Assembly: GCA_018713165.1 (NCBI GenBank)
Contig: DVFR01000034.1
Coordinates: 1 to 62,236 of the forward strand
Direction: 5' to 3'
From: Candidatus Coproplasma stercoravium
GTDB taxonomy: Bacteria; Bacillota; Clostridia; Christensenellales; Borkfalkiaceae
Length of the DNA stretch: 62,236 nucleotides
Shown here: in pieces, positions 59,676-62,236 of the stretch
How the letters are laid out: each line of letters starts with the position of its first letter
Position numbering within the stretch: position 1 is the stretch's first letter
The notes under the pieces: model-generated
The model's input: the letters and a program-made list of their open reading frames with translations, nothing else
What the model was told of the DNA's origin: nothing
Databases searched by the model: none
Program-made: the position numbers and the translations under genes

Positions 59676-59709
59676 TATAAAAAACGGGTAGCAAAAGCCA
59701 CCCGTTTTT
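59676..59709 (-). terminator. Terminator of tRNA-Gly
   Basis: On the minus strand ACGGGTGGC-TTTT-GCTACCCGT is followed by TTTTT. The same hairpin recurs at 60744-60774 in the opposite orientation. Confidence 0.8.
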
Positions 59710-59711
59710 AT

Positions 59712-59786
59712 TGGAGCAGGTGACGGGAGTCGGACCCGCCGAAATCAGCTTGGGAAGCTGACGCCATACCGCTAGGCGACACCTGC
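59712..59786 (-). tRNA. tRNA-Gly (CCC)
   Basis: Acceptor GCAGGTG pairs with CACCTGC, then T and an encoded CCA. The anticodon stem TCAGC/GCTGA closes the loop TTCCCAA, giving anticodon CCC. The T-arm is GCGGG-TCCGACT-CCCGT. 75 bases including CCA. Confidence 0.93.
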
Positions 59787-60351: not shown

Positions 60352-60443
60352 TATTTGAAGCACATTTCTTATAATTCAGTACGATAAATTTTTCCGCAAG
60401 CGTTTTCAGACGGCAAAGATTTTATTTTTTGATTTACTTTTAA

Positions 60444-60472
60444 TTGACGAGAGATTGAAAAAAGAATATAAT
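60444..60472 (+). promoter_or_regulatory. Promoter of tRNA-Pro(CGG)
   Basis: TTGACG (60444-60449), 17 bases, TATAAT (60467-60472). Confidence 0.75.
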
Positions 60473-60481
60473 AGTCGGGTA

Positions 60482-60557
60482 CGAGGCGTAGCGCAGATGG
60501 TAGCGCGCTTGGTTCGGGACCAAGAGGTCGTGGGTTCGAATCCCGTCGCCTCGACCA
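60482..60557 (+). tRNA. tRNA-Pro (CGG)
   Basis: Acceptor CGAGGCG/CGCCTCG with encoded ACCA. Anticodon stem CTTGG/CCAAG around TTCGGGA gives CGG with G37. Its last 21 bases plus nine bases of flank are repeated exactly at 60715-60744. Confidence 0.95.
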
Positions 60558-60566
60558 ATAAAAACA
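60537..60566 (+). repeat. Direct repeat, left copy (tRNA-Pro 3' end)
   Basis: Thirty bases from CGAATCCCGT through the CCA to AATAAAAACA; identical to 60715-60744. The pattern is that of an attachment-site duplication at a tRNA 3' end. Confidence 0.85.
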
Positions 60567-60595
60567 GGCGGTTTTCCGCCTGTTTTTATTTTTTT
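60565..60595 (+). terminator. Terminator of tRNA-Pro(CGG)
   Basis: CAGGCGG-TTTT-CCGCCTG followed by a long T-rich run. Confidence 0.85.
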
Positions 60596-60598
60596 GAA

Positions 60599-60730
60599 GA
60601 GGCAATACGGGATTCGAGGGGAGGCAAGCAAGCTAAGCTTGCGCTGGTCGGCGGAGTCTACCGACGACAAAACAGCGGACAGCCGCTGTTTTCCGTGCGC
60701 GTCCGCACAAGGCGCGAATCCCGTCGCCTC
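60599..60730. other. Structured ORF-less element with tRNA-derived ends
   Basis: The left end GAGGC-AAT-ACGGGATTCG (60599-60616) is an imperfect inverted copy of the right end CGAATCCCGTCGCCTC (60715-60730), which is the tRNA 3' arm. Between them are four hairpins in a row: GCAAGCT/AGCTTGC (60628-60642), GTCGG/CCGAC (60647-60665), AAAACAGCGG/CCGCTGTTTT (60669-60692) and GTGCG/CGCAC (60695-60708). There is no coding capacity. It could be a tiny mobile element or an RNA. Confidence 0.55.
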
Positions 60731-60744
60731 GACCAATAAAAACA
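60715..60744 (+). repeat. Direct repeat, right copy (tRNA-Pro 3' end)
   Basis: Exact copy of 60537-60566, offset 178 bases, including the CCA. No tRNA body precedes it, so it is not a functional tRNA gene. Confidence 0.85.
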
Positions 60745-60774
60745 AACGGGTGGCTTTTGCTACCCGTTTTTTTT
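60744..60774 (+). terminator. Terminator after the duplicated tRNA end
   Basis: AAACGGGTGGC-TTTT-GCTACCCGTTT then T-run; same hairpin as the tRNA-Gly terminator. Confidence 0.8.
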
Positions 60775-60856
60775 AAGGTTTTATGTATTGGCAGGGAACG
60801 GCTTTCAGGCCGCCCCTGCCTTTTATTTATACGGCAGAATTTTTCCGAATTAGCTT

Positions 60857-61738
60857 TCAGCTTTCGTCGGAATCCACCTCGAACAACGTTATAACCACGT
60901 AAAATTTCGCGGAGGAAAGCTTGTCGTAAGCGTCGAGTTTTATTTTCAACGTAGCGCCCGCCTGTGCCTGCATGAGCAGAAGTCCCGCGGAATTGCCGTT
61001 CTTTTCCGCCATAGTAATTTCAGATGCGGGAAGTTCGGAGCCGTCAAGTTCGAGAACCGCATTGCTGCCGCCGTAGCATCTGAGTTCGTAGTCGGTTTTG
61101 AACTGTACGAGATATAACCCGTTTTCGGCAAGTTCTATATCGGCGCCGTCGGCGGAAACAGACTTACAATCGTAGGGGAAAATCTGCGTTTCGCCGAACT
61201 GCACATAGGGTTCACCCTCTTCAAAATCGCCCTCGGCTGAGAAGATACATTTGCCGCATACAGGGCACTTGCAATCCTCACCCTTAGGGCCCGTGGCGCC
61301 TGTAGCACCTGTTGCGCCCTTGGGGCCCGTTGCACCTGTTGCGCCTGTGACACCCGCCGTACCCGTAACACCTGTTGCACCGGTTGCGCCTGTTGCACCT
61401 GTCGCGCCGGTCATTCCGGTTGCGCCTGTTGCTCCCGTCGCGCCGCGGGGAATTGCGAAATCGAAGATATGGTTGGTTTCGGTACCGCTGTCTGTTACGG
61501 CGGCAAATTCTTCGGGCTCGAGAGTCGTGGTCGAACCTGCGGCGAGAGTATCCGCAACGCCGGTGGCACCCGTAGCTCCCGTTGCTCCGTCCGCTCCGTC
61601 AGCACCGTCTGCGCCGTCGGTACCCGCAGGCCCGGTTGCGCCCGTTGCACCTGTTGCACCTGTTGCACCCGTGGGGCCTGTCACACCCGTGGCGCCGGTC
61701 ACTCCCGTAGGACCGGTGGGGCAGGTGCAATATGGGAA
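60857..61738 (-). CDS. Collagen-like repeat protein, 5' end missing
   Basis: A Gly-x-Thr triplet-repeat protein of the BclA-like surface/spore type. The readable frame begins [15 protein letters not shown] directly after an in-frame TAA and has no ATG; a GTG at 61702 is the first possible start but lacks a ribosome site. Repeats of [10 protein letters not shown] (about 7-60 and 95-150) flank a spacer ending [12 protein letters not shown]. Then come cysteines (CKCPVCGKC) and a C-terminal beta-rich domain ([21 protein letters not shown]) that probably trimerises. The true start was probably displaced by the recombinase-carrying element upstream. Confidence 0.8.
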
Positions 61739-62236
61739 TTATTTTGTAGTTTGTTCGCGGTATTCCACGAGAGTTTTGTTAGATATAAGTTTGTAGTAGA
61801 TATGAATGTGCCGCGGTTCGTCGCCGTCCGTCTTTTCTCCGACGGTGATAAACTCGATGAATTGCAGGCACATTTCGCGCGTCAGATGCTCGCATCTGCC
61901 GTAGCGTTTGAGTCGGGCTATATACTCCTCGGCATCCGCCTCTATGGTATCCGCCTCGGCAAGCCGCTTTTCAATTTCGGCAATGCGCTTTTGCGCGCTT
62001 TCCTTCTCCGCCTGATACTTCTGGCACAGATTAGCGCACACGCTTTCAGGGAGATTGCCCAGCACCTTCTCTTCAAAAGCCGATTGAATGAGCTTATCCA
62101 ACCCTGCAAGCCTGTCGTTGAGTGAGCGCAACTGCTTTTCATCTGAGAGCCTATTGCGCTCGCCGCACTTTGCACGTTCTTTAAAGAAATGCTCCTTTGC
62201 CCTTTCCTCGTCAATTTCCACCTTGCCGAGCATATC
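61739..62236 (-). CDS. Large serine recombinase, C-terminal part (partial, DUF4368-type)
   Basis: About 165 residues from the C-terminal half of a serine recombinase; the gene continues beyond the window edge, so the catalytic serine domain is not visible. A coiled-coil-rich Lys/Glu stretch (EKESAQKRIAEIEKRLAEAD) precedes the conserved MCLQFIEFITVGEKTDG and RHIHIYYKLI, typical of DUF4368 ends of Tn4451/TndX-like recombinases. Its TAA stop is immediately followed, in frame, by collagen-like codons, marking an element boundary. Confidence 0.82.
   Translation of the reverse strand, partial: DMLGKVEIDEERAKEHFFKERAKCGERNRLSDEKQLRSLNDRLAGLDKLIQSAFEEKVLGNLPESVCANLCQKYQAEKESAQKRIAEIEKRLAEADTIEADAEEYIARLKRYGRCEHLTREMCLQFIEFITVGEKTDGDEPRHIHIYYKLISNKTLVEYREQTTK

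Follow-up and report, generated by a model that had tools for sequence, protein, structure and literature searches.

A gene-less insertion behind tRNA-Pro(CGG): probable copy of a small mobile DNA family whose ends follow the target tRNA gene

Integron attC sites and gene-less cassettes form arrays of small units in which structure is conserved more than sequence, and REP/REPIN elements are short hairpin elements that are moved in trans by RAYT transposases. Phage Ms6 and other tyrosine-integrase elements insert at the T-loop, duplicate the tRNA 3' end and restore the tRNA; for Ms6 the target is the T-loop of tRNA-Ala (PMC1762012). The YPAL/RU-2 element of Yersinia is a MITE-like repeat, described as a structured sequence of 168 bp with no genes and with internal inverted repeats, which targets sites of dyad symmetry and duplicates 3–26 bp of them (PMC2229807). 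Template switching at quasipalindromes, in which one hairpin arm is copied from the other, gives matched arms (PMC8794818, PMC8604942, PMC7202029), and hairpin-arm copying in DNA would give matched Watson–Crick arms (PMC8794818, PMC8604942); these papers describe a mutation process and not a part of element spread.

The insertion described here lies behind a tRNA-Pro(CGG) gene in a window of 62,236 nucleotides, by which we mean the whole stretch of DNA analysed. Its parts and those of the target gene are as follows.

60444..60472, + strand: promoter-like site of tRNA-Pro(CGG), the sole consensus-scan match within 60380-60860
60482..60557, + strand: tRNA-Pro(CGG), the target gene, CCA encoded
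60537..60566, + strand: proximal copy of the 30-bp direct repeat, from tRNA C56 through CCA into the beginning of the terminator
60557..60590, + strand: first intrinsic terminator (that of the tRNA)
60599..60616, + strand: inverted copy of the tRNA 3' end, the part compared across copies
60617..60714, + strand: element core, class A (match to covariance model R1 at 60615-60722, 121.8 bits)
60624..60642, + strand: hairpin 1
60647..60668, + strand: hairpin 2
60669..60692, + strand: hairpin 3
60695..60714, + strand: hairpin 4 (60695-60708 in the single-sequence fold)
60715..60735, + strand: distal direct copy of the tRNA-Pro 3' end, from T-loop C56 to CCA
60744..60769, + strand: second intrinsic terminator

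The direct repeat at 60537 and 60715 is exact over 30 bp (35 bp at 94%) with a spacing of 178, and since it is the only exact 30-mer found twice in the 62-kb window, it is not due to chance. The initial annotation had described this repeat as bracketing a 178-bp insertion that contains a terminator, an inverted tRNA arm and four hairpins, and both the sequence and the predicted fold place all of these as listed. The insert folds into a terminal stem that closes the four hairpins (−66.4 kcal/mol, z −4.5), and none of 200 shuffles was as stable. Within the terminal stem, GAGGC of the inverted end pairs with 60726-60730, AAT forms a bulge and ACGGGATTCG pairs with 60715-60724; in the alignment fold, the 3' arm of hairpin 4 reaches the T-loop junction. 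Four ORFs of at least 60 aa touch the insert, three of them overlapping the tRNA gene, and all four look spurious.

Two further observations concern the surroundings. The distal terminator has 29 exact nt in common with the terminator of a tRNA-Gly(CCC) gene 1 kb off, compared with 11 for the proximal one, a pattern that also resembles switching between tRNA tails. Tail and terminator of that gene (59676-59732, − strand) show 84% likeness to the distal tRNA-Pro copy with its terminator (60715-60775). On the other side, a collagen-like gene (60857-61702, − strand) is preceded on its strand by the final part of an ORF that has a DUF4368 domain (61739-62236, − strand); this looks like an element of the large serine recombinase type that has entered the collagen-like gene.

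A search of the window's own genome with the insert revealed additional copies, next to tRNA-Leu, next to tRNA-Ala and close to the ends of contigs. A query combining tRNA and insert gave many more in 93 genomes of the genus, some of them tandem, many of the matches to this query being plain tRNA genes. The counts given here come from a covariance model, R1, built from 28 cores without their tRNA-matching outer ends (a few T-loop bases were retained) and run with strict filters on the genus, the order and a phylum sample. At an E-value of 1e-4, R1 matched 61 of the 93 species genomes of Candidatus Coproplasma, with nine places in the window's own genome. Across the order, matches were confined to 16 of 297 genomes, all of one family: eight of the genus, seven of genus g3 and one of genus g4, the last of them weak (E 4.5e-5). 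The only match in the 398-genome phylum sample was the window's own genome. Named genomes among the exact-motif records belonged to three Candidatus Coproplasma species and to uncultured Clostridia or Clostridiales bins. The core had no match in phage and plasmid collections, an exact 18-mer was not found in viral contigs, and a search of open PMC text gave no description of such a family.

Altogether, 146 distinct copies from 53 genomes were examined, 90 of class A, 19 of class B and 37 left unclassed by a simple motif. Units are about 180–210 bp in size and occur singly or in tandem. The tRNA genes that they follow represent 18 isoacceptors, and some units follow tmRNA; in different species the element stands behind different tRNAs. 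Two other repeats also came to light. One, at L009-L019, is a different dispersed repeat of the genome with the same AAACAGCGGACACCCGCTGTTT hairpin, and the stretches fetched for it held no tRNA. The other is a second gene-less type (type C) at tRNA-Pro (L056, L035, L036, L048, L171 and L311), with a core that runs GGGCTCCC...GGGAAGAGGAG; it repeats the tRNA directly from the anticodon loop on and carries the anticodon arm in inverted form as well, and in L035 and L048 the direct copy ends just before the T-loop.

The ends of the copies match the neighbouring gene. In 105 copies the tail was readable and a tRNA lay no more than 700 nt upstream (38 of the 146 had no same-strand tRNA at this distance in the available stretch, and the tail was too short in 3 more). 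The tail corresponded to the last 20 nt of the copy's own upstream tRNA with at most three mismatches in 86 of these, exactly so in 68, and did not fit it in 19. Among the 86 fitted copies, the inverted end scored a mean of 11.26 with the copy's own tRNA and 6.37 with others; the own tRNA was best or tied in 67, and another isoacceptor fitted better in 19. Compared with tRNA positions 56-65, the inverted end agreed at 9 or 10 of 10 bases in 72 of the 86 copies and at 8 or fewer in 14, against a mean of 6.69 for the other-tRNA control. The distance from tRNA to core was 50–89 nt in 66 copies and 180–640 nt in the remaining 20, several of which are later units of arrays.

Part of the unassigned tails was accounted for by tmRNA genes, which ARAGORN had missed and Rfam detected. 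Of six loci with such tails, four (L069, L070, L093 and L151) have a tmRNA ending 65–67 nt before the core; in the same order, the tmRNA 3' end differs from the tail by 1, 0, 0 and 0 mismatches, and the inverted ends agree with the tmRNA at 9, 9, 9 and 10 of 10 bases. The base next to the inverted end, which faces position 55, is C in all four copies with a tmRNA-like tail, and tmRNA has G55. Among 52 tRNA-fitted copies, where T55 is usual, 48 have A here; of the four exceptions, three have T and one has G. In two copies of G223, a genome of a sister genus, the left side fits one tRNA and the right side another (L309, at a contig end, and L312, inside a contig); these mixed sides reflect either recombination between copies or assembly chimeras.

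Nearly the same core is found at different tRNAs of one genome. The G035 cores that stand behind Leu(TAG), Arg(CCT) and Pro(CGG) are 96–97% alike, and the ends of each copy fit its own tRNA. In G223, the cores at Ser(CGA) and Pro(CGG) agree at 117 of 117 bases, and the inverted ends match their own tRNA at 13 of 13 positions and the other's at 9 of 13. The Pro copy of this pair follows a displaced tRNA-Pro 3' part, itself located after a type C unit, in a 1.6-kb stretch for which ARAGORN reported no complete tRNA.

Copies with near-identical flanks, which we consider young (G050 Gly; G013/G045/G046 Arg; G046 Pro(AGG); G084 Ser(GGA)), show the form of the insertion. Their duplication runs from the T-loop through CCA and the terminator to about 40–53 nt past CCA, and it ends at the inverted end or a few bases away. 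An empty site was found as well: the tRNA-Arg(CCT) beside the same permease gene (79% protein identity) carries the element in G035 and lacks it in G047, these two being the only ones of 27 loci fetched by that permease with the tRNA in reach. The difference may stem from gain or from loss. At another locus, G000 and G047 have a Ser(GCT) copy in common, with a compensated hairpin 3, and vertical descent therefore occurs. The initial annotation had proposed a minimal gene-less mobile element, to be recognized by the hairpin core next to other tRNAs and by an empty site, and had named a core found once and fixed in all relatives as the contrary outcome; the core recurs in its own genome and in relatives, the orthologous Arg(CCT) site is filled in one genome and empty in another, and the proposal is supported.

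On balance, the insertion is probably best explained as a copy of a small non-autonomous mobile DNA family of Candidatus Coproplasma and a sister genus. In this family a four-hairpin DNA core sits at the T-loop (position C56) of its target, a tRNA or tmRNA gene, and insertion duplicates the rest of the gene and its terminator, leaving the upstream tRNA and terminator intact and a second tRNA 3' end after the core. We are confident that the element is mobile and targeted to tRNA genes, and it is likely that the target serves as template for its ends, during insertion or shortly afterwards. More tentatively, we suggest that the target tRNA gene templates both the direct and the inverted copy of its tail through a polymerase template switch, with no dedicated transposase. 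According to this scheme, the core would be copied in by a replicative, template-switching route, in which the strand may enter and leave the donor core at the T-loop sequence common to tRNAs. The 5' inverted end would be copied from the tail of the new target's tRNA within the folded single strand, and the tRNA tail and terminator would be copied twice. For this particular route, as proposed, we estimate somewhat less than an even chance. Counting against the explanation as a whole, no transposition event was observed. The unfitted tails and inverted ends, the copies with no tRNA upstream and the two G223 copies with mixed sides, all counted above, weigh against it too. By eye, the outer side of the inverted end in class B seems to be flanked by an element-like linker (TTGTAA-like or GGNTACGAA-like), which a simple snapback at the terminator does not account for; the snapback was therefore retained as a part of the explanation and not as the whole. 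The template-switch view accounts neither for this linker nor for the choice of a point downstream of the terminator. Cores might also have been homogenised, with the ends spared, by gene conversion among elements of long standing.

To identify a partner enzyme, we searched carrier genomes for known functions. Reverse transcriptase (PF00078) is present in 30 of the 93 genus genomes and was absent in the carriers G000, G035, G036, G044-G047, G077 and G083; reverse transcription, suggested by the CCA-ended, SINE-like look of the element, was rejected as a general route because several carriers lack PF00078. The Y1 transposase was present in G000, G004, G046 and G084, absent in 17 of 25 genomes tested and not found in G035, G036, G044, G045, G077 and G083, and a Y1/RAYT partner was rejected because several carriers are without it. 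A search for far direct copies of tRNA 3' ends, which might delimit an autonomous partner, covered 20 stretches and the window, and the farthest lay at 896 nt. None of the PF00589, PF00078 and Y1 searches identified a recombinase or polymerase for the element; as the genomes are MAGs, a single absence is weak evidence.

Among the alternatives, the one that survives best, though we consider it unlikely, is that the units are integron-like or satellite cassettes, att-only passengers that a tyrosine recombinase joins to the tRNA T-loop as a folded attC-like hairpin or a small circle. The insertion point in the T-loop, which recalls Ms6, the strongly conserved palindromic structure and the tandem arrays at one tRNA in which class A and B units are mixed (G044, G035) are consistent with it. 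PF00589 genes occur in 89 of the 93 genomes, several copies in many, with 14 matches in G223, so an integrase route is conceivable in general. In addition, an ordinary integrase-bearing element lies in tRNA-Pro directly beside a class B copy (L318 5955-7424, G321); it sits in the anticodon loop and was for that reason rejected as the autonomous partner. However, G035 (a MAG, 95% complete) has a single PF00589 match, a Xer-like tyrosine recombinase, despite its near-identical cores at three tRNAs, and mobilisation in trans by a tRNA-targeting integrase, one of the two possibilities offered by the initial annotation, finds no support in this genome. The Xer-like gene is nearest XerS in NCBIfam, below cut-off, with an integron profile as a secondary, sub-cut-off match. 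What appears to be the same gene adjoins an hflX-like gene in 5 of 5 loci and has a lexA-like gene near it in at least 4 (names read from the proteins), and it looks like a housekeeping gene. Moreover, a circle with another tRNA's tail would yield a chimeric tRNA, and conservative recombination gives no target-specific inverted end. Nor was a cargo gene noticed between units in the array stretches examined, and one truncated unit, in L059, continues into an ORF.

Somewhat less probable still is a history of old elements, one lineage per tRNA, in which gene conversion keeps the cores alike in each genome and the ends were fitted long ago. Cores are indeed more alike within than between genomes (mean identity 0.725 for the same genome and different tRNAs, 0.662 for different genomes and the same tRNA), and the Ser(GCT) element of G000 and G047 was evidently inherited vertically. 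Class A cores, on the other hand, are not grouped by tRNA identity: with tandem mates excluded, the nearest neighbour of 66 cores was in another genome at another tRNA for 46, in the same genome at another tRNA for 11 and in another genome at the same tRNA for only 9. For the G223 pair, old lineages would also need a conversion tract that covered all 117 of 117 core bases and stopped precisely at the tRNA-specific ends. They sit poorly with the young, near-identical tail duplications and with the filled and empty orthologous site, and 18 isoacceptors plus tmRNA would still require separate fits.

The conservation of the stems bears on whether the element acts as DNA or RNA. Among 71 distinct cores in the alignment, 98.4% of 1770 cells were paired and double changes occurred at 25 of 25 pairs; these figures benefit from an alignment that had been fitted to the structure. 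None of 500 shuffles reached any of the five observed stem measures, and slides were far lower. G-U made up 24 of 1742 standard pairs (1.4%), compared with 169 of 2102 (8.0%) in the stems of 96 distinct tRNAs from the fetched loci. Strong covariation together with scarce G-U hints at DNA hairpins, and near-perfect Watson–Crick arms with linked flips would be the outcome expected of hairpin-arm copying in DNA. The asymmetry of G-U over A-C (24 to 10, p 0.024) mildly favours the top strand, and RNA would fit this too.

A functional structured RNA that ends in CCA, is processed like a tRNA and regulates or mimics the preceding tRNA is improbable; a tRNA-ended multibranch RNA was the other possibility offered by the initial annotation. 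The conservation of stems and unpaired bases is strong, the fold is more stable than that of shuffled sequences and the terminal stem looks like a bulged acceptor/T-stem minihelix. Taking it strictly as a minihelix for RNase P was rejected, the acceptor part of the inverted end being often mismatched by eye. The low share of G-U pairs argues against an RNA, as do the lack of an R1 match at the cut-off in 32 of the 93 genomes of the genus and the change of tRNA neighbour between species. Furthermore, the consensus scan of 60380-60860 gave no promoter-like site inside the insert, the lone site preceding the tRNA, a terminator stands ahead of the element, and the insert scored below the gathering threshold of every Rfam family. 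Finally, the scar of an ordinary IME, left when a single larger integrated element shed its genes, would explain the direct repeat of the tRNA 3' end but is very improbable, since the same intact core, with covarying stems, is found in 61 of 93 genomes.

The mobile family that we propose resembles several described systems in part. Like YPAL/RU-2, the element is gene-less and structured and duplicates its target; unlike YPAL, young copies duplicate a tRNA 3' end and its terminator, the ends fit the target, and the identified targets are tRNA or tmRNA genes. MITEs have their own terminal inverted repeats, alike in all copies, and a fixed short target duplication, whereas here the inverted end varies with the target tRNA and the duplication comprises tRNA tail and terminator to about 40–53 nt past CCA. 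The tRNA 3' end is restored and duplicated as by tyrosine-integrase elements; in contrast to these, the element has no integrase of its own, is about 180 bp long, places one core at many isoacceptors and bears an inverted copy of the target at its other end. Its structure is compatible with recombination of a folded single strand. Compared with integrons, no integrase or attI was noticed in the array stretches examined, the target is a tRNA gene and the boundary sequence follows that target. REP/REPIN elements differ in their partner, a Y1 transposase having no match in the six carriers listed above, and a retroelement or SINE would need a reverse transcriptase, which the nine carriers named for PF00078 do not offer. 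The family thus behaves like a small non-autonomous mobile repeat, yet it departs from both MITEs and retroelements and has no integrase of its own.

If the target does write the ends, the family would merit a class of its own. Such a mode of movement would account for the ability of a gene-less element to occupy many tRNA genes and leave them intact, and the family offers many natural insertions in which hairpin-arm copying in bacteria can be tested. In known small mobile repeats, a transposase reads ends that do not vary. Here the constant part is the core, and the ends change with the target; this suggests a way of moving DNA in which the junctions are written by the target.
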